Shown here in pieces: positions 25,201 to 50,841 of a stretch of DNA of 64,000 bases. The first letter of the stretch is position 1, and every line of letters starts with the position of its first letter. The position numbers and the translations under genes were made by a program. Below the pieces are notes generated by a model. That model was not told the DNA's origin and ran no database searches. It saw only the letters and a list, made by a program, of their open reading frames with translations. Location: contig CADCGB010000010.1 of NCBI GenBank assembly GCA_902800815.1, forward strand, positions 1 through 64,000, written 5' to 3'. Source of the DNA: Fibrobacter succinogenes (GTDB lineage Bacteria > Fibrobacterota > Fibrobacteria > Fibrobacterales > Fibrobacteraceae).

Positions 25201-25347
25201 GCGTAATACTTAAATAGTTCTATTCAAGATGAAGAATCGAATCCCTTGCTACGTTCTGGCCTTGCTGTGTCCCCTGCTTTGGGGGCTTTTCGCCTGTTCC
25301 GAAGACCGCACCGCAGGCGGAACGGTAGACGGGAACTCAATTGCGGA
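25201..25347 (+). repeat. 147-bp direct repeat, copy 1
   Basis: Matches 29239-29385 with three substitutions, offset 4038 bp. It contains the last codons of a lost T9SS-type domain (encoding VILK and a stop at 25203-25217) plus the first 40 codons of the lipoprotein at 25229. Confidence 0.92.
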
Positions 25348-28800: not shown

Positions 28801-29255
28801 AGTCTTATTATGCTCGGTGTTCAAAGAATGGGGCTGGAATTTCCTCCAGTTCTTCTGAACAACCTTCTAGCAGTTCTGAGATTGCTTCTAACTCTTCGAG
28901 TTCTCTGGGCGACGAGGAAAGTTCTTCGAGCATGATAGCGTCCTCGTCATCGGATGCGGAAAGCAGTTCTTCTGCAAAGCCGGAATCGTCTTCGTCGTCG
29001 AAGGCGAATAGTAGTTCCTCGAAGGGGACGGATATTGCGTGGAATGCTGTGCGGCCTATGTTCAACCTCACGGTAAACGGCATGACGCTCACGCTTTCTA
29101 ATACGCAGGGTGGCGTTGTCCGCATCTTTGATGCGCTTGGTCACATGGTTGCCGCCAAGTCAATTGCCAGCGCAACGACGAGCATCACCCTGCAAACCCC
29201 GGGCAACTACATCGTCCGAGTGAACGGAATGAGCCGTAGCGTAATACTTAAATAG
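25860..29255 (+). CDS. Large secreted GLUG/InlB-repeat protein with T9SS-type sorting domain
   Basis: 1131 residues. Signal peptide (AIILCLLAGLSLPTMLYA, about 19-36), then roughly ten GLUG-like beta-helix repeats between about residues 230 and 650, each with a GGFVG-type turn (GGFVGYSKG, GGFIGCMSA, GGFVGFAIT, GGFVGHASA, GGFIGEAWD, GGIFGTCSN, GGILGNWGS, GGIAGLGTV). Next are InlB B-type repeats (about 860-990; NGYEFLGWYNG, GYEFDGWMP), a polyserine linker (about 993-1055) and a C-terminal sorting-like domain (VRIFDALGHMVAAKSIA, then GNYIVRVNGMSRSVILK). Probably an exported adhesin or fibre-like protein. Codons are clearly AT-richer than core genes. Tightly coupled to the lipoprotein upstream. 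Confidence 0.85.
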   Translation: MTTQIRLSRSSRFSAFKAIILCLLAGLSLPTMLYADWDGGVKKPSTIEKNGRTFYEIESAENLAWFMMQVNKGNTGYNAVLKKDISIVDSAVTGKSVKWTPIGDADSVSYKGVFDGDGHTISGVYSNARYAGFFGFIGPGAVIKNLNLQNALVQSYFEGTSRAGLLSSMFSGDSVINVSVAGTVSDTTYAGGLAAIIKSKAYINGFRGDVYFVGKAKKYNEYIVYSEKQVAGGVAALVMDSVKILNSHVSGFADSSEIRGMVGGFIGIDSAYAYFENDTNNVNIRLNDSPSYLGGFVMRVAPGAAADFVSCLNRGNIQGSQSYVGGFVGYSKGNLSFYNSVNEGEIKHPGSITSSQFAGGFIGCMSANGQVSIDHSFNMGNVYSAYEAGGFVGFAITRLTITDSENAGTIDGKTAAGGFVGHASADSSLIIDYSRNVGTIVGRYTGGFIGEAWDTIIIDHSVNAGEIAGTGEHIAGFIAQVSGKTAKVDVRNSTNMGKIITDGGADVGGIFGTCSNCTATNCENYGEIILDGKDNSKTANVGGILGNWGSAINCRNYGNITIDSVVSPTVGGIAGLGTVQGCVNKGAITVNTRSTSKVGGIGGQTSAYYSLNEGRVVVNLAGIGEECYAAGITATISSTTRLGGNVNKGTIIVNGGNGDAHVYPLHGVSADGKSTRAKAVAGSISLSDSIVNNGRLTAGSTLKNNKDTVAQCAFFDKDIYRVDDDSLGFGISTAEMETIEFAYRLNTCNGLVKNSGYWSQHGDNYPVMSDQDNHAIYKVIFKDSSRVINIKTYKIGESLTNYKGVIIDMPEAPDPSDADEDLKFGYWAYENQVIDENTIINGDYTVYATYVPKNSVVETLAFKTETGDVFAKYVISDKMVEITLPNAPSKNGYEFLGWYNGNQFVGAAGAKIVPNGLSVLNAKYETILYKISFISRTDTLQTGSFAYGDMPEYKGEKPTCAELGYEFDGWMPIVAAVSADKSYYARCSKNGAGISSSSSEQPSSSSEIASNSSSSLGDEESSSSMIASSSSDAESSSSAKPESSSSSKANSSSSKGTDIAWNAVRPMFNLTVNGMTLTLSNTQGGVVRIFDALGHMVAAKSIASATTSITLQTPGNYIVRVNGMSRSVILK

Positions 29256-29385
29256 TTCTATTCAAGATGAAGAATCGAATCCCTTGCTACGTTCTAGCCT
29301 TGCTGTGTCCCCTGCTTTGGGGGCTTTTCGCCTGTTCCGAAGACCGCACCGCAGGCGGAACGGTGGACGGGAACTCGATTGCGGA
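29239..29385 (+). repeat. 147-bp direct repeat, copy 2
   Basis: Second copy of 25201-25347. It covers the last codons of the exoprotein and the first 40 codons of the lipoprotein at 29267, with three substitutions. Confidence 0.92.
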
Positions 29386-32894: not shown

Positions 32895-33083
32895 ATGGCT
32901 AAAAATGCTTTACTGCATTACAACCGGGAGCGGAGCGATATTGACTTGGCTGTTTTCGGTGGCGGCGTGAGCGCCTATACGGAGGAGCCACTTTCGGGCG
33001 ATGCTCACATAGATCATTTCCGTAAGAGGGATATGTTCCCTAACTTGACCTTTGATTGGAATAATCTGTTCGTAGATGTTTAG
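32895..33083 (+). pseudogene. Fragment of MntA-type nucleotidyltransferase
   Basis: A 62-codon open frame whose centre (NRERSDIDLAVFGGGV) is the core motif of minimal nucleotidyltransferases but without the GSRARG loop before it. The stretch 32921-32969 repeats 35472-35520 with one mismatch. After it the reading is unrelated to the family (SAYTEEPLSGDAHIDHF). It overlaps the end of the minus-strand gene at 33080 by four bases. It is a captured fragment rather than a working gene. Confidence 0.7.
32921..32969 (+). repeat. 49-bp direct repeat (nucleotidyltransferase core), copy 1
   Basis: 49 bases identical to 35472-35520 except one position. Together the two copies bracket the minus-strand lipoprotein gene 33080-35245, starting 111 bp below its 3' end. 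Confidence 0.9.
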
Positions 33084-35373: not shown

Positions 35374-35595
35374 ATGAACTTGCCGCTGAACATACAACGC
35401 CAGATAGAGGAGTTTGCGAAAACTTGCAAACTCGAGAAGGTCGTTTTGTTTGGTTCTCGGGCAAGGGGGACCAACCGGGAACGGAGCGATATTGACTTGG
35501 CTGTTTTCGGTGGCGGCGTGGATCGCTTCGAAGAGTTGCTCGAGAGGGGAGGCTGCTGTATGCAAAAGTTTGAGAACTTCGTTAACTGCTTTTAG
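35374..35595 (+). pseudogene. Truncated MntA-type nucleotidyltransferase
   Basis: 73 codons. The N-terminus shows the antitoxin-type minimal nucleotidyltransferase: KLEKVVLFGSRARGTNRERS then DIDLAVFGGGV, i.e. the G-S-x10-D-x-D signature. Full members run to 95-130 residues with a third catalytic Asp in a later strand; here the chain changes to DRFEELLERGGCCMQKF and stops, so that Asp is missing. No HEPN partner is adjacent. Probably a decayed remnant of an MntA/HepT-like module. Confidence 0.75.
35472..35520 (+). repeat. 49-bp direct repeat (nucleotidyltransferase core), copy 2
   Basis: Second copy of 32921-32969, here in its natural setting inside the truncated nucleotidyltransferase frame. 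Confidence 0.9.
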
Positions 35596-43532: not shown

Positions 43533-44483
43533 CTAGCCCGCTTCCGCCATGCTCCCCGCGTGCTTGCGCACCTGGTAGCATAGGCTCCCCCTGCTTATCC
43601 CCAGTTTGCTCGATGCTACGCTCTTGTTCCATTCGCACATGTCGAGCACGTTCTTGATTATTTCCCACTTCGGTGCGGCTGTGCGCCGTTTTGACCACAG
43701 TGCATTCTGCTCGTCTTTTTGCCTTGATTCGTTCTCGTGGACCGATGTCGTCGCGAATTCGTCGCACAGGAGTTCCTCGAGCCTTACCCCGTGCGATTCC
43801 AGCAGGGCGTAGCGCTGCAGCACGTTCTTCAGTTGCCTCACGTTTCCGGGCCACTTGAATTGCTTGAGGGCGGTAATCTCGCTTAGCGAGAGTTTTGTCT
43901 TGGGGACCTCGAAATGCGTGCGCCTCGCGTGCTCGCATATCCTGTGCCACAGGTCGCGTGCAAGTTCCTCGAAGTCGTCACGCGAGCGCAGGGGAGGGAT
44001 GACTATCGGGAATACGTTCAGCCGGAAGAACAGGTCTTCGCGGAAACGCTTTTCGAGAACCTCCTTCTTGAGGTTCCTATTTGTAGCGCAGATGAGCCGG
44101 AAGTCGACGTGGATGCAGTGCGAGCCGCCTACGGGCAGTACCGTGCGTTCCTGCAGAATGCGCAGTAGCTTGCTCTGCGCGTCGAGCGGGAGTTCGCCTA
44201 TCTCGTCAAGGAATAGCGTGCCCCCGTGTGCCGCCCGCACGATCCCTTTCTGGTCGGCGTACGCCCCGGTGTAGGCACCCTTTACGGAGCCCTCGAGCGT
44301 GCTCTCGATGAGGTTCTGCGCGAGCGCCCCGCAGTTGAGCGCGACGAACGGCTCGTTGCACCGCGGGCCGTGTTCGTGTATGTAGCGTGCGGCTACCTCC
44401 TTGCCCGCGCCCGACTCCCCTTGGATGAGGACGGGTACGGAGGAGTTCGCCGCGATATTCAAGAGTTCCTTAGGTTGTTTCAT
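43533..44483 (-). CDS. Sigma-54-dependent transcriptional activator without receiver domain
   Basis: 316 residues, PspF-like architecture: the AAA+ sigma-54 domain begins at once (Walker A GESGAGKE, 22-29; the sigma-54 contact loop GAYTGA, 69-74, with Tyr instead of Phe; Walker B GGTLFLDEIG, 87-96; LFFRLNVFPIVIPPLRSR). A Fis-type helix-turn-helix is at the C-terminus (NKSVASSKLGISRGSLCYQV). No N-terminal sensor domain is present, so control must come from expression or a partner. GGAG precedes the ATG. It is divergent from the GLUG protein at 44619. Confidence 0.9.
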   Translation of the reverse strand: MKQPKELLNIAANSSVPVLIQGESGAGKEVAARYIHEHGPRCNEPFVALNCGALAQNLIESTLEGSVKGAYTGAYADQKGIVRAAHGGTLFLDEIGELPLDAQSKLLRILQERTVLPVGGSHCIHVDFRLICATNRNLKKEVLEKRFREDLFFRLNVFPIVIPPLRSRDDFEELARDLWHRICEHARRTHFEVPKTKLSLSEITALKQFKWPGNVRQLKNVLQRYALLESHGVRLEELLCDEFATTSVHENESRQKDEQNALWSKRRTAAPKWEIIKNVLDMCEWNKSVASSKLGISRGSLCYQVRKHAGSMAEAG

Positions 44484-44532
44484 GGTGGTCTCCTAACCAT
44501 AAAACGGATGAAACAACATTTTATGCCATAAG

Positions 44533-44572
44533 GCACCCATTTTTTTACATTAGCACCTGTTTTTTTACAATT
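44533..44572 (+). repeat. Tandem 20-bp repeat in the divergent promoter region
   Basis: Two adjacent copies, GCACCCATTTTTTTACATTA and GCACCTGTTTTTTTACAATT, differ at five positions. They lie between the divergent sigma-54 activator and the GLUG protein and are candidate binding sites for a regulator. Confidence 0.7.
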
Positions 44573-44618
44573 TTATTTATGATGTTGCTATCTTTATGGA
44601 ATAAAAAATGAGGATAGG

Positions 44619-46598
44619 ATGAACAAAGTTTGGATTTTATTGTTCGCTTTGGCTGTGGCGGTGAATGCGGCCGATACCCTGTCATTCGTTTTGCATGCCG
44701 ACCAGAACGGTGGTTCTGGAATGAGAAATGAATACCGGGAATGTACTACGGCAAAGTGCTATTTATTCGGGCAAGATTCCATGAAACGCGAAGGCTTTAT
44801 TTTCCGGGGCTGGACTTTGGAAAAAGATGCCGTCGATACATTTTATGTTCCGAGGGCAAAGCTGGAATTGCCGTTTGTTGCAGAAGGCGACACGGTGACC
44901 GTTTACGCCAAGTGGTTCGAAGTCAAGAGACCGAAAAAGGTGAATAGCTGCTACCAGATTGGCAATGCCAGCGAACTTTACGGATTGGCCTATATTGTAA
45001 ATGGAACCGACAACTTTGAGCAAGAAACAAACATATGCGCCGAGCTGACGGCAGACATCGTGGTGAACAAGAATGTCCTTGGTTCAAACGATTCCTTGCG
45101 AGAAGACAGAAGCTATTTGAAATGGGTTCCGGTAGGCGAGTTCCGTAGAGAATTTTCCGGCAAGATTAACGGCAAGGGCCATACCATTAGTGGCTTGTAT
45201 TCTGACACTTCCCAGAGCGTAGCGCTTTTAGGTTGGGTTCAGGATAGCGTTGCCGTTGACAGTCTTGGCATTGTTGGTTCTTATTTTAAGGGTGGGTATC
45301 CGGTTGCAGGTATTGTTGCCGGAGCGAATAGGCGTTCGGTCATTAGCATCAGCAATTCCTATGTCGACATGACTCTTGTAGGAGAGGAAGTTGGCGGCCT
45401 TGTCGGCCGAGTTTCTGATTCGTCTTATGTTTCGGTAAGAAATTCCCATCATTCTGGCTTAATAACGCACTATAGGGATGTTGCGCTACTTGGCGGGTTG
45501 ATTGAATGTGTCGGGCCGAGATCTGTCGTAAAGATTTATGGCTCCTACAACGAAGGGATAATCCATACGTTTAATTATGGTTCCCAGGAAGATTCCGTTT
45601 CTGTGGGCGGCCTTGTCGGAAGATTGGGAAAATATTATGAAGTGTTTGCAGCCAATGAAAAATACGTAGACACGTTGATTATCGAGAACAGCTACAATGT
45701 GGCAACAATGGATAGTCGTGGTGAAATGGGCGGCCTTGTCGGTAGGCTCTTTGGCAAATATAGCGTTATCAGGAATTCGTACAATACGGGCAAATTGAAT
45801 GGATTGACTTATGTGGGCGGCCTTGTCGCTTGGTTAAGCGGCACGCAAATGAACATGTCGAATTCCTATAATAGCGGTGCGCTCCGGGGTGAAATGGTTG
45901 CGGGCTTGATATCCCGTATAGAGGATGCTGACTTGAATATTTCTGCTTCGTATAATACTGGTGATGCAGTTGCTTTCGATAGGGGCGGCTACAATATTAC
46001 TTACGCGAGCGGTTTTATCGGGTCGCCGAGTACAAGCGAAGTGAAGATTGTCAATTCGTATAATCTGGGTACGGTACAAAAAGAGTATAAAGATTATACG
46101 GCCAAGGGCGCGGGATTGATAATGACTCAGAATGAAGGGGTTTTTATCAAGAATTCTTATACCGTTGGTAACGCCATGAATTACGATGCCCTGAAACACT
46201 GTCTGAATTGCGAGTATCCTGGCATGTTCGAGAATGTCTTTTACGAAACGCTGACGGCTGGCGATTCTGTTATTGCGCACACCCCTGAGGAATTTGCGAA
46301 CGGGGCTATTGCGTACTTGTTGAATGGTTTCCATGGCGACGACGTAGACGGGCACGTGTGGGGGCAGAAGGTTGGCACGGATCCGTATCCGGTCTTGAAC
46401 GGTGCCGGTGTTGAAGGCTACAACGGCGAAGGGACCACTCCCGTTATTGCTTCCCCGAAGGCAGTCAAGACCACGATTATGGCGGTTCCGCGTAAAAACG
46501 GCCGCATTTTCGACATCCAGGGCAGGACGGTCTCCCGCGCCCGGCACACTAGCCAGCACCCCTACATTTTTCTATCTTTGCCCCCCGCGCGGCGGTAA
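44619..46598 (+). CDS. Secreted GLUG-repeat protein with broken C-terminal sorting domain
   Basis: 659 residues. Signal peptide MNKVWILLFALAVAVNA, an InlB-like beta-grasp region (SFVLHADQNGGSGMRNEYRE, then GFIFRGWTLEKDAVDTFYVP), then GLUG-type beta-helix repeats with GGLVG turns (VGGLVGRVSD, VGGLVGRLGK, MGGLVGRLFG, VGGLVAWLSG) up to about residue 460. The C-terminus begins like a T9SS domain (GRIFDIQGRTVSRA) but then becomes RHTSQHPYIFLSLPPARR and stops inside a 49-bp repeat. The usual GxYIVR strand is missing, so sorting may fail. GAGG precedes the ATG and TATCTTTA lies at 44589. Confidence 0.82.
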   Translation: MNKVWILLFALAVAVNAADTLSFVLHADQNGGSGMRNEYRECTTAKCYLFGQDSMKREGFIFRGWTLEKDAVDTFYVPRAKLELPFVAEGDTVTVYAKWFEVKRPKKVNSCYQIGNASELYGLAYIVNGTDNFEQETNICAELTADIVVNKNVLGSNDSLREDRSYLKWVPVGEFRREFSGKINGKGHTISGLYSDTSQSVALLGWVQDSVAVDSLGIVGSYFKGGYPVAGIVAGANRRSVISISNSYVDMTLVGEEVGGLVGRVSDSSYVSVRNSHHSGLITHYRDVALLGGLIECVGPRSVVKIYGSYNEGIIHTFNYGSQEDSVSVGGLVGRLGKYYEVFAANEKYVDTLIIENSYNVATMDSRGEMGGLVGRLFGKYSVIRNSYNTGKLNGLTYVGGLVAWLSGTQMNMSNSYNSGALRGEMVAGLISRIEDADLNISASYNTGDAVAFDRGGYNITYASGFIGSPSTSEVKIVNSYNLGTVQKEYKDYTAKGAGLIMTQNEGVFIKNSYTVGNAMNYDALKHCLNCEYPGMFENVFYETLTAGDSVIAHTPEEFANGAIAYLLNGFHGDDVDGHVWGQKVGTDPYPVLNGAGVEGYNGEGTTPVIASPKAVKTTIMAVPRKNGRIFDIQGRTVSRARHTSQHPYIFLSLPPARR

Positions 46599-46633
46599 AA
46601 TGCCGTCGCAGACATAGACACAAAAACCAAGTG
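46585..46633 (+). repeat. 49-bp direct repeat of the lysC leader, copy 1
   Basis: Exactly identical to 48004-48052 (offset 1419). It overlaps the last codons of the GLUG protein. It is preceded by TTTTTCTATCTTTG, a promoter-like run similar to that before copy 2. No gene follows it. Confidence 0.95.
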
Positions 46634-46643
46634 TTCGCAGCGC

Positions 46644-46669
46644 AAAAAAAAGGAGGCCCGGAGGCCTCC
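46644..46669 (-). terminator. Rho-independent terminator for the minus-strand lipoprotein
   Basis: Read on the minus strand: GGAGGCC, loop TCCG, GGCCTCC (46652-46669) followed by eight T (46644-46651). It terminates the lipoprotein gene ending at 46705. Confidence 0.93.
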
Positions 46670-46704
46670 TTCGTTAGGGTATGCTGCTTCTCGTTTGATA
46701 ATGC

Positions 46705-47841
46705 TTATCTCGCGTATTTCGCCCACTTGCGGAGAGACTTTTCGCGGCGGGATTCGCGGTCGCTTGCGTTGTAGCCTTTTTTCGCGAGAGTCTTTGCGGC
46801 TTTGGCGTAGGTGTATCCGTCAAGGGGATCGTACTTCTTGTATGCGATACCCGTGATGCACTGCTCGAAATCATCTTCGTTGTTGCTGCTGTACTTTTCT
46901 GCCGCGATAAACGTCCCGTAGTTGGAGTCTTCCCATTCATCCATGCGGAGGTTGTCCTTGTATTCTGCCTTGCAGTAGTCGGCGTTCATGTAGTGGGAGA
47001 TGTACTCGCCCGTACAGGTTGTTATGCCGTCGCTCACTTCCACCTGGATTTCCTTGTTCTCGCTTGCGATAAAATAGCCTTCGCGGTTCAGGCTCATGTC
47101 CATATGTTTTACGTTGACGGTATATGTCTTGCCGCCCAGTTCGAAGGTGGCGTTCGACTTGGTCTTCGATGTAAATACTGCGCCGATTTTTTGTGCTGTG
47201 GCTTGCACGCTCGAGGCTTCCATGTACCAGATTTCATCTAGGTAGATTTCGGGATAGTTGCCGCCGAGGGTGTTGAAGAGTTGGCTCATGAAGTAGGAAT
47301 TCATGAAGTCGCTGTGGTCTTCTACGTAACGATCGAAGTATACCTTGTAGTTGATTTCGGCCTTCCCCTTGGAGAAGGTTATTGTGCGGAGGAAGTACTG
47401 CAGGTTCTTTTCATAGCATTCGGTTTCGTCTTCTTCCTTGTCATATTCGCATCCGGTGTAGGTCCACGTGCCGTAGAGGCTGCCCGCGGTGCCGCCGACC
47501 AGCATCTCGCCGTAATCCGTATCGGGAAGGCCATGGTAAATGTCGTAGAGCAGCAGCGTGTCGCCACGGAATTCGTACATCATGGAATCCGGTTCGTTGT
47601 TGATGTGTACGGTTTTCCAGGTGTAGTTGTCCTCTTCTACGACACACATTTGGGTTTCGTAGTTCTCGAGTGCTATCGCCAGGATATGTTCCGACTCGTT
47701 GACGTATAGCGTGCCGGCTCTTGAAAAGACGTCGTCCCCTGTGGGCCTGCTGGACCCGTTACCTGCGTTGGAGGATGTGTCGTCGCCGCAGGCAGTCAGG
47801 AGCATCGCGGAAACCGCGGCGGTGGTCAGGAAGCGTTTCAT
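46705..47841 (-). CDS. Predicted surface lipoprotein, unknown function
   Basis: 378 residues, signal MKRFLTTAAVSAMLLTAC with Cys18 followed by GDDTSSNAGNGSS, acidic at +3/+4. The mature part is rich in beta-strand patterns (TYTVNVKHMDMSLNREGYFI) and ends with a basic, alanine/lysine-rich tail (KAAKTLAKKGYNASDRESRR). No family recognised. GGAG lies 6 bases before the ATG. The gene, with its terminator, is bracketed by two exact 49-bp direct repeats and sits divergent to lysC. Confidence 0.78.
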   Translation of the reverse strand: MKRFLTTAAVSAMLLTACGDDTSSNAGNGSSRPTGDDVFSRAGTLYVNESEHILAIALENYETQMCVVEEDNYTWKTVHINNEPDSMMYEFRGDTLLLYDIYHGLPDTDYGEMLVGGTAGSLYGTWTYTGCEYDKEEDETECYEKNLQYFLRTITFSKGKAEINYKVYFDRYVEDHSDFMNSYFMSQLFNTLGGNYPEIYLDEIWYMEASSVQATAQKIGAVFTSKTKSNATFELGGKTYTVNVKHMDMSLNREGYFIASENKEIQVEVSDGITTCTGEYISHYMNADYCKAEYKDNLRMDEWEDSNYGTFIAAEKYSSNNEDDFEQCITGIAYKKYDPLDGYTYAKAAKTLAKKGYNASDRESRREKSLRKWAKYAR

Positions 47842-48003
47842 TTTTTCTCCTTTTTAGGAACCTTCTTAATTTGTTTGTACGGGAATATATCTTTTTTTGG
47901 GGGTGTGCGGTGTGCAAATGTGCGTTTTTGCGACGAAATGCCAATTTGGGGCCTTGAATGGACCAAAACCTAGACATTAGGGGCATATTTTTCTATATAT
48001 GTG

Positions 48004-48052
48004 CCGCGCGGCGGTAAAATGCCGTCGCAGACATAGACACAAAAACCAAGTG
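48004..48052 (+). repeat. 49-bp direct repeat of the lysC leader, copy 2
   Basis: Identical to 46585-46633. It starts with a self-complementary CCGCGCGG, includes a CGGC/GCCG hairpin, and lies downstream of TTTTTCTATATATG. It probably is the 5' end of the lysC mRNA. Confidence 0.9.
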
Positions 48053-48061
48053 GCTGGCCAG

Positions 48062-48145
48062 ATGGGTAGGCTTGGGCACGACGACCGTGAGGAAAGCGGT
48101 TGCGCTCGAAGCCGAGAGGTTTGGTGGCCCGAAAGGAAAAAATGA
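48062..48145 (+). CDS. Possible lysC leader peptide (27 residues)
   Basis: A short frame, MGRLGHDDREESGCARSR followed by EVWWPERKK, ends TGA at 48143-48145 overlapping the lysC ATG as ATGA. It lies entirely in the leader downstream of the 49-bp repeat. Its end has two adjacent Lys codons. No strong ribosome-binding site is visible upstream, and the overlap could be coincidence, so this is only a candidate upstream frame for translational coupling. Confidence 0.35.
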   Translation: MGRLGHDDREESGCARSREVWWPERKK

Positions 48146-49383
48146 GTCAAAGAATCGTATGCAAGTTCGGCGGCAGCTCTGTCGCCGAGCGCAATCCCAA
48201 AGAGACGAAGCTTACCGACCTCCTCTACAGCACCTACGACCTCGCCTCCAAGGGCCTCGACTTTTCGACCCCGTGGAACCTGATCCGTCAGCGCTATGAC
48301 GAAATCTGCAAGGACCTCGGTCTCGAAGACAAGCTGACCGAAGATCTCGACAGCCTCGAGGACAAGCTGAAGAACCAGCCCGAATCCGTGAGCACGGACT
48401 TCCTCGTGAGCCGTGGCGAATTCCTCTGCGCACGCCTCATGGCCAAGTACCTGGGCGCAAACTTCGTCGACACCTTCCCGCTGATCACCTTCGACGACAA
48501 GTACCGCATTGTCCCGAAGACCTACGAAGACATCGCGAAGACCTTGTCTGACGAAAACCAGCTTTACGTGCTGCCGGGCTTCTATGGTGCAAACCTCCGT
48601 GGTGAAGTCAAGACCTTCAGCCGTGGCGGTTCCGACATTACGGGCGCCATCCTCGCTAACGGCATCGATGCCGCCAAGTACGAGAACTGGACCGACGTCT
48701 CGGGCATGCTCATGGCTGACCCGCGCATCGTCGAAAATCCGTTGCCGATCGAATACGTGAGCTACCGCGAAATCCGCGAACTCGCTTACTCTGGCGCTTC
48801 TGTGCTTCACGACGAATCCATCGCCCCGTGCCGCGCGAAGAAGATTCCTATCAACATCCGCAACACGAACCGCCCCGAAGACGCTGGCACCATCATCGGC
48901 CCCACTCCGGAAGAAGCGAAGCTCCCGATTACGGGTGTCGCCGGCCGTAAGGGCTTCTCCATGATCTACATCGAGAAGTCCATGATGAACAAGGAAGTCG
49001 GTTTCGGCCGCCGCGTGCTCGCCGTGCTCGAAAGCGAAGGCCTCTCCTACGAACTGTGCCCGAGCGCTATCGACTCCATGAGCATTGTCGTGGATAGCAA
49101 GGCTCTCGACGCCGTGCAGGACGTGGTTCTCGAAGACATCACGCAGCAGATGCGCCCCGACCGTATCAAGGTGTTCCCGGGTATCGCGCTCATCGCTACC
49201 GTGGGTCACGGCATGACGAACAAGATCGGTGTTGCCGCGAAGCTGTTTACCGCTCTCGCCGAGAATAAGGTGAACGTCCGCATCATCGACCAGGGTTCTT
49301 CGCAGATCAACATCATCACCGGTGTTGACGAAGCCGATACCGAGAAGGCCATCAAGGCCATCTACGGCGCGTTCGTGAAGTGA
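48142..49383 (+). CDS. lysC: Aspartate kinase
   Basis: Aspartokinase commits aspartate to lysine, threonine, methionine and diaminopimelate synthesis. The 413-residue protein begins MSQRIVCKFGGSSVAE (the KFGGSS signature), has FSRGGSDITGAILA in the nucleotide/aspartate site, TDVSGMLMADPRIVENPLPI, and tandem C-terminal ACT regions (GRKGFSMIYIEKSMMN; IALIATVGHGMTNKIGVAAK) typical of feedback-inhibited enzymes. The ATG at 48142 follows AAAGGAAAAA. It has a GC-rich leader of about 138 bases (48004-48141) with potential hairpins and a short upstream frame. A palindromic repeat and a terminator follow. Confidence 0.94.
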   Translation: MSQRIVCKFGGSSVAERNPKETKLTDLLYSTYDLASKGLDFSTPWNLIRQRYDEICKDLGLEDKLTEDLDSLEDKLKNQPESVSTDFLVSRGEFLCARLMAKYLGANFVDTFPLITFDDKYRIVPKTYEDIAKTLSDENQLYVLPGFYGANLRGEVKTFSRGGSDITGAILANGIDAAKYENWTDVSGMLMADPRIVENPLPIEYVSYREIRELAYSGASVLHDESIAPCRAKKIPINIRNTNRPEDAGTIIGPTPEEAKLPITGVAGRKGFSMIYIEKSMMNKEVGFGRRVLAVLESEGLSYELCPSAIDSMSIVVDSKALDAVQDVVLEDITQQMRPDRIKVFPGIALIATVGHGMTNKIGVAAKLFTALAENKVNVRIIDQGSSQINIITGVDEADTEKAIKAIYGAFVK

Positions 49384-49392
49384 CACCTCCGG

Positions 49393-49427
49393 TGTCATCC
49401 TGAGTGGCGAAGCCACGAAGGATCTCA
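49393..49427 (+). repeat. Dispersed palindromic repeat (TGTCAyCCT family), copy 2
   Basis: Begins TGTCATCCTGAGTGGC, then GAA, then GCCACGAAGGATCTCA. An inner GTGGC/GCCAC stem around GAA and an outer TCCT/AGGA stem mirror the copy at 17495 with covarying bases. It lies after lysC. Confidence 0.8.
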
Positions 49428-49447
49428 AACCCGAATATAAACTGCGA

Positions 49448-49475
49448 CCCGGAATAAAATCCGGGCCGTTTTTTT
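49448..49475 (+). terminator. Rho-independent terminator after lysC
   Basis: Stem CCCGGA (49448-49453) with TCCGGG (49460-49465), loop ATAAAA, then CCG and seven T. Confidence 0.9.
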
Positions 49476-49550
49476 AATGTGTTTAATCTTCATTTTTTGC
49501 CAGATTATCGGAATTTGTTTTTTTGACCATTCACTTATAAAATATCAGTG

Positions 49551-49556
49551 TATATT
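49551..49556 (+). promoter_or_regulatory. TATATT box placed for leaderless transcription
   Basis: TATATT ends six bases (ATAGGT) before the ATG at 49563, so transcription would start at the A of the start codon. Confidence 0.55.
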
Positions 49557-49562
49557 ATAGGT

Positions 49563-49958
49563 ATGCGTTTGTTGAGATCCTTCATTTGTATGTTGCTCAT
49601 GCTTAGCCTTGTCGGCTGTGCCGTGAGCAGGAACCCGAATCCCATGATTCGTTATGGGGTCAATACGGGTACTGCTTTGGCGGTGCCGGGCATTGCGGCA
49701 TTTTGCTTAGCCGGAGCGATTGGGGGGCTCGCGGATAGTGAAAAAATAGAGGAGAAGGATAGGAGCGACGACGATGATCTTGGCTCGATGGCCTTGATTG
49801 GTGTTGGAGCTGCGGCCGCAGGCTTTGCGGTGGGGGCTGTTCTTGGCGGAACCGTTGGATTCTTCAAGTGGATGCTTAATGGATTTGAAGACGATAATGT
49901 CGGGACAGGGGAGCACTTGCCGGAGGAAATTTTACCGCCAGCAAGGCCTGACGACTGA
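49563..49958 (+). CDS. Small glycine/alanine-rich lipoprotein
   Basis: 131 residues from ATG 49563; the frame extends to 49548 but that start would lie inside the promoter box. Lipobox LSLVGC (Cys19) then AVSRNPNP, with no acidic signal. Two hydrophobic Gly/Ala-rich helices follow (ALAVPGIAAFCLAGAIGGLA; ALIGVGAAAAGFAVGAVLGG), of glycine-zipper type, separated by an acidic KDRSDDDD loop. Tail is acidic. A glycine-zipper outer-membrane lipoprotein is the best description. It ends one base before the convergent GH11 gene. Confidence 0.72.
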   Translation: MRLLRSFICMLLMLSLVGCAVSRNPNPMIRYGVNTGTALAVPGIAAFCLAGAIGGLADSEKIEEKDRSDDDDLGSMALIGVGAAAAGFAVGAVLGGTVGFFKWMLNGFEDDNVGTGEHLPEEILPPARPDD

Positions 49959-49959
49959 T

Positions 49960-50841
49960 TTATCTTTTCTTCACGGTCCTGACGGCAGGGCTTATTTTCT
50001 TTTCGCCGGTGCCGAGGTAGCGGCCCTGCATATCAAACATGCGGGTATTACCCTTTAGGAGCGGAAGGCTTGCGCGCCTTGAAATGGCTGTCGTTTCGCC
50101 GGTAGTGTCTGCCGATTCGGTGATGTTGAAGTAGTCAATTTGAAAAAAGTTGATGCTGCTTTCCCCTTTGCTCGCTTCTACAAGCGCCATGACATCGGTT
50201 ATCTTGCCCACCTTCAGGCCGAGCTCTTCCCACTTCTTGAAGTGTGCGGTAATGTCGATGTGGCCGCTGTCGCGTACGGTGCGGCGAATGCTGAAATACC
50301 GCTTGTACGATATGTCGCCCTGGGCGCTCAAGTAGTTGTTGGCGGTGTTCTGCCAGATGTCGTAGGTGTCGCCATCGACGGTGAATTCGCCGAGCCTGGT
50401 TCCGAAAGCTGATGTGTCGGCTGTATCTCTGATTATCCAGTAGTCTATGATATAGAATTCGGTTTTCGGCTCGGTGGTATTGCCCTGGATGCCGACCAGG
50501 AAAAAGGGGGTGCCGAAGCCGCCGCCTTTTGTGCGAAACTTGTAGTCCGCCGCAAAGTTGCCGTGCTGGTCGAAGGTCTTTGGCTCGTCGAACTTGGGAC
50601 CAAAGCGCACGATAGCGTCCGCGACCTTGGAGTAAACTAAGTAGCCGCCATCATCGTAGCACTCCAAATAAGCATTGTAGCCATCGCGCCAGACTTCGTA
50701 ACTGTAGTTTGTACCGTCTATCGTGCCGGAGGCGTAGTTTTCGCCCTCCGCGGGCCATGCGTTAGGACACCTTTCCGCATAGATAGTCGTAGCCAAGCCC
50801 ATGGTGAGGGCGATTCCTAAACCCACTAGATTCTTCTTCAT
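49960..50841 (-). CDS. Glycoside hydrolase family 11 (xylanase) homologue
   Basis: 293 residues. Signal peptide (LVGLGIALTMGLATTIYA), then a GH11 beta-jelly-roll: YSYEVWRDGYNAYLECYDDG, TEFYIIDYWIIRDTADTSAF (Glu128 at the nucleophile position), YDIWQNTANN, YFSIRRTVRDSGHIDITAHF and ALVEASKGESSINFFQID (Glu222 near the acid/base position). The typical PL(V/E)EYY and ATEGY motifs are altered, so substrate preference may differ from classical xylanases. A short C-terminal tail with MFDMQGRYLG resembles Fibrobacter sorting tails. A TATATT box six bases before the ATG predicts leaderless mRNA. It acts outside the cell on xylan-like polymers, by family inference. Confidence 0.82.
   Translation of the reverse strand: MKKNLVGLGIALTMGLATTIYAERCPNAWPAEGENYASGTIDGTNYSYEVWRDGYNAYLECYDDGGYLVYSKVADAIVRFGPKFDEPKTFDQHGNFAADYKFRTKGGGFGTPFFLVGIQGNTTEPKTEFYIIDYWIIRDTADTSAFGTRLGEFTVDGDTYDIWQNTANNYLSAQGDISYKRYFSIRRTVRDSGHIDITAHFKKWEELGLKVGKITDVMALVEASKGESSINFFQIDYFNITESADTTGETTAISRRASLPLLKGNTRMFDMQGRYLGTGEKKISPAVRTVKKR

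Follow-up and report, generated by a model that had tools for sequence, protein, structure and literature searches.

The lysC locus of Fibrobacter succinogenes raises the question of why an exact copy of the start of the lysC leader lies a short distance upstream, beyond a lipoprotein gene and across the end of another open reading frame (ORF). The DNA analysed here, referred to as the window, is a stretch of 64,000 nucleotides (contig CADCGB010000010.1, positions 1 to 64,000). On re-checking, the plus-strand segments 46585–46633 (copy 1) and 48004–48052 (copy 2) are identical over 49 bases, an exact and maximal repeat in the same orientation, 1419 bp apart, just as a preliminary description of the sequence had stated. 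The content given there for the interval was also correct, namely a minus-strand lipoprotein ORF (46705–47841), termed here the CGDDTSS lipoprotein gene, and its minus-strand terminator (46672–46649). When a 32-base part of the 49-mer was searched with up to three mismatches, the real sequence gave two matches and 100 dinucleotide shuffles gave none. By length, the repeat ranks third among the exact direct repeats of the window, behind those of 68 and 57 bp at 25.2/29.2 kb; these two adjoin each other (25201–25326 and 29239–29364) at a distance of 4038 bp. A further exact direct repeat, of 39 bp, occupies 32931–32969 and 35482–35520.

The preliminary description had suggested that the 49-mer might be a dispersed element or a recombination site, and neither idea found support. 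In its own genome (3.15 Mb), the 49-mer is present twice and no more at up to three mismatches, and a 36-base part of it occurs once per contig in nine named Fibrobacter contigs; a dispersed repeat or mobile element was rejected on these counts. Of 57 other loci, 4 carry the exact 49-mer, each a single time and as an ordinary allele of the leader, and the sameness of the two copies therefore requires no special cause: it would reflect a common allele of the leader's first hairpin, P1, rather than a dispersed element. A spare P1 or core word, searched as exact words up to about 4 kb upstream, is absent from every other slot read between lysC and the regulator gene upstream of it, and a proven recombination site was rejected as well.

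Similarity between the copies extends upstream of the 49-mer (91% over 46566–46633 versus 47987–48052), and the −10 region is therefore common to both. The earlier suggestion of a partly duplicated promoter is borne out by the promoter-like sequences CTAGCC-18-TATCTT before copy 1 (46549–46578, plus strand, within the ORF of a GLUG-motif protein) and CTAGAC-18-TATATA before lysC (47970–47999, plus strand). Upstream of P1, 30 of 31 leaders, and copy 1 as well, have a hexamer of the CTAG-, CTTG-, ATTG-, or TTTG-type, a spacer of 18 (17 in two), and a TA-type box. The count is descriptive, given that the pattern was written after inspecting the leaders; the same pattern occurred in 11 of 5000 random windows of the fetched upstream DNA. 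Only this comparative layout was used, since a strict sigma-70 scan found no site (0 versus 1.2 expected by chance). From its putative promoter, copy 1 may start a short transcript toward the 3′ end of the lipoprotein gene.

To place the repeat within the leader, we read the lysC leaders of another 54 genomes from the genus, along with three stretches from outside it. They begin with P1, which in most is followed by GCAGACATAGAC; a variable linker comes next, and then a core that extends into the ribosome-binding site and the ATG of lysC. This comparison supports the earlier assignment of copy 2 to the 5′ end of the lysC leader: copy 2 consists of the P1 hairpin (48008–48028) and linker of an intact leader, and copy 1 of an orphan P1 hairpin (46589–46609) and linker. 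Folded alone, P1 has a free energy of −14.6 kcal/mol. The P1 region takes 20 different 38-base forms among the 31 leaders, several of them with a different yet paired stem, and the P1 of the window is common to 12 of the 31. The core (48046–48141, plus strand) comprises three stacked helices, P2 to P4, and ends at the ribosome-binding site; covariance model R1 matches the window at 48046–48147 with 116.6 bits. In alignment A1, which holds 37 of 49 prepared sequences after near-identical ones were thinned (L057 and L086 having been excluded earlier), RNAalifold gave 27 consensus pairs, 13 of them with two-sided change. Over 32 distinct rows of the core, 99.6% of cells are paired and two-sided changes fall in 12 pairs; none of 500 shuffles reached the real core alignment in pairing and two-sided changes, and slid versions of the pairing fall to 23–53% paired. 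Another alignment, A2, retains one badly aligned row (L069). The proposal that the 49-mer is part of a structured RNA is thus supported by the covariation of the core and the comparison of P1.

In a search of 61 genomes of the genus and 39 others, the core model matched once per genome in 52 of the former and in none of the latter. A wider search, covering 167 genomes from across the phylum, found the core in 74, comprising 71 of the 80 genus genomes and three from a sister genus within the same family; the remaining 84 gave no match. Of the nine genus genomes that gave no match, two (G016 and G017) have leader DNA interrupted by the end of a contig. In the wider search, a second, partial core match appeared in G117, again at a contig end. 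Two of the three sister-genus leaders lie before lysC; in the third, the pattern script did not find lysC. The core thus has a fixed place before one gene, with one match per genome at lysC positions, and by its covariation and this fixed position the lysC leader is a structured cis-acting RNA.

Known RNA families do not account for it. The covariance models of Rfam 15 gave no match at E ≤ 1 in window positions 45000–50500, and in the lysC loci of seven relatives the Rfam matches were weak, all below the gathering scores of their families, and were taken for chance; the lysine riboswitch and any other Rfam family were rejected because no covariance-model match qualified in the window or in the relatives' leaders. 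The natural comparison is with the lysine riboswitch (Rfam RF00168), a cis-regulatory leader of lysC. Like it, the Fibrobacter leader is structured, conserved, and placed in the 5′ UTR of the gene for an aspartokinase; it is present once per genome and ends at the coding start. Unlike it, the leader has no Rfam match at E ≤ 1, its core model is a stack of three helices with no branch points and no multibranch junction, and its type is restricted to two genera. Literature searches combining Fibrobacter with riboswitch, RNA motif, candidate structured RNAs, and lysC or aspartokinase returned no description of this leader, a statement limited to these searches; in the accessible part of PMC2864571, Fibrobacter appears in a reference title only. 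We regard the leader RNA as a probable gene-control element of an undescribed kind.

P2, the closing helix, stops a few bases short of the AAAGGA ribosome-binding site, and the window sequence contains no U-run terminator between P2 and the lysC ATG, which together favour translation control over termination; the leader probably regulates lysC translation. A leader peptide was also considered, as a 27-codon frame lies within the core (48062–48145) with its stop overlapping the lysC ATG. This frame was set aside because changes in core length break it (104 in L034 versus 90) while the helices covary, and it is not kept in leaders with an extra core hairpin. As a tentative extension that we regard as possible but less than even in probability, the leader of Fibrobacter and its sister genus would form an undescribed class of riboswitch responding to lysine or another aspartate-family metabolite and acting on translation; P1 would be a separable and exchangeable 5′ module, with copy 1 as a spare, and the site after P1 would tolerate a second structured RNA. 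A long-hairpin RNA element of about 160 nt lies between P1 and P2 in seven lysC leaders (L035, L037, L050, L062, L067, L070, and L071). It also stands alone at dispersed sites (L091 and L096–L118), often 14–31 nt before the start codons of other genes. The element has 52 consensus pairs, 21 with two-sided changes, and no Rfam match of note; its model matches in 33 of 100 genomes, with none in the window or its own genome.

The repeat lies in a region of variable gene content. From the NtrC-like gene to the lysC leader (44484–48003), the window corresponds to a slot in which zero to two lipoprotein genes lie on the minus strand and a GLUG gene is present in some cases. Its left border is a gene for an NtrC-like regulator of the sigma-54 activator type (43533–44483, minus strand; PF00158, E = 2.2e-62), which adjoins the slot in 46 of 50 classified loci. 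Classed by simple sequence rules (L057 being too short to class), these 50 loci, the window included, comprise 29 empty slots, 10 with one lipoprotein gene, five with two, and four with no regulator in the stretch; the slot of G010 has a lipoprotein gene plus a GLUG gene, and that of the window a GLUG gene plus a lipoprotein gene. Presence or absence of the lipoprotein interval, which the preliminary description had proposed to check, does differ among relatives. In the window, the GLUG-motif gene (44619–46598, plus strand; PF07581, E = 4.2e-05) ends within copy 1. The CGDDTSS lipoprotein gene, one of the slot's variable genes, has no Pfam family over its cut-off. The last gene is lysC itself (48142–49383, plus strand), encoding aspartokinase (PF00696, E = 2.8e-33).

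Comparison with three relatives bears on how the spare copy arose. The sister genome G103 (97–98% identity over two stretches inside window 36–42 kb) has the order regulator, 76 bp, lipoprotein, leader, and lysC. Its matches to the window end at 44507 and restart at 46631; the stretch missing from G103 (44508–46630, plus strand) thus holds the GLUG gene, the lysC-type promoter, and P1 copy 1. On the left, similarity ends in the homologous promoter region of the regulator gene. On the right, only GTG is common to the two sequences before the shared flank (TATGTG followed by TTCGCAGC in G103 versus CCAAGTG followed by TTCGCAGC in the window). Among 80 genomes of the genus, a full-length homolog of the GLUG gene was found only in G010 (73% identity in DNA), where it lies directly upstream of the lysC leader; its ORF crosses the lysC promoter and stops in the P1 loop, as the GLUG ORF of the window does in copy 1. 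Because the two layouts are the same, copy 1 appears to mark a place where a lysC leader once came after GLUG. The P1 of G010 differs from copy 1, and none of the 80 genomes searched for GLUG turned out to combine that gene with the exact P1 allele of copy 1.

On this sequence comparison, the account we lean towards, at somewhat better than even, is that copy 1 is an orphan piece of leader left by a transfer in which one end joined by homology and the other illegitimately, copy 2 being the P1 that opens the intact lysC leader. The donor chromosome would have carried the GLUG gene directly upstream of its lysC leader. The donated segment would have run from the regulator promoter region and GLUG through the lysC promoter to P1 and linker. 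Homology close to the regulator gene would have anchored it on one side; on the other, next to the terminator of the lipoprotein gene already in residence, the join at GTG would have been illegitimate. Copy 1 retains the promoter layout of 30 of the 31 leaders, in favour of a transfer; against it, the junction is known from a single assembly and the start of its own lysC looks damaged. Homology-facilitated illegitimate recombination has been proposed for effector-immunity slots of the Vibrio type VI secretion system (T6SS) (PMC5361080). Under the favoured account, the two cases would have in common a join that is homologous on one side and illegitimate on the other, with leftovers of the earlier arrangement beside a new gene in a variable slot. 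They differ in that the remnant here is a promoter and leader hairpin rather than an immunity gene, in a single case.

The order of events could also have been the reverse, with a segment like that of G034 (lipoprotein, leader, and lysC) entering a resident GLUG-leader-lysC arrangement, cutting the old leader after P1, and bringing a complete leader with it. The lipoprotein-leader part of the window is in fact nearest to G034 (93–100% per 200-bp bin, a range that holds from 46642 through most of lysC) and not to G103 (83–96%), which speaks against the favoured account as it stands and calls for a further exchange or a different order. Immediately upstream of that part, the identity to G034 is only about 88%, and in the regulator it is 80%. 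However, the outermost lipoprotein flank, TTCGCAGC, is common to the window and G103 and missing in G034, and G103 already carries the lipoprotein gene at this place, so that we consider the reverse order unlikely. An assembly error that joined contigs of two strains with different slots, the spare P1 being the end of one, is to our judgement rather improbable. Contigs end in the lysC leader or lysC start at L073, L074, L084, L085, L162, L163, and L200 (which is G117), the first six being examples of how often assemblies break there, and it may be that assemblers have difficulty with so strongly conserved a leader. In addition, lysC in this genome, the only copy found, lacks 81 bp at window position 48188, whereas each of the 47 further lysC starts that were read has the 27 codons concerned. 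At this same place in G117, a repeat of about 30 bases breaks the frame. The 81-bp gap is compatible with either a real deletion or an assembly error. On the other hand, only three bases are shared at the junction, so that the repeat itself cannot mislead a k-mer assembler, and both junction flanks are otherwise intact.

A direct repeat in the same orientation and at short distance would also be expected of an old tandem duplication of the leader 5′ end with the lipoprotein gene between the copies, but G103 and G034 have that gene without a spare copy, and the sequences preceding the two copies diverge in the manner of distinct leader alleles, which makes this origin very improbable. The preliminary description had named, as a sign of such a duplication, a 49-mer pair confined to this locus together with a lipoprotein interval conserved in all relatives; the pair was indeed found only here, but the interval is not conserved throughout. 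We likewise see little prospect that copy 1 is functional, as a second promoter or short RNA or as a recombination point for slot genes. Its promoter layout and hairpin are complete and the gene content of the slot is variable, but it is seen in one genome only, no plus-strand gene lies downstream before the lipoprotein terminator, and leader pieces stand at the borders of no other slot.

Under the favoured account of a transfer, the repeat would be a local scar that explains how one gene comes to end inside another gene's promoter. The locus also reveals a variable lipoprotein slot beside lysC. Its wider meaning lies in the leader RNA, which belongs to a key amino-acid gene, is conserved across a genus of cellulose-degrading rumen bacteria, and is absent from Rfam, with covariation sufficient for immediate testing.
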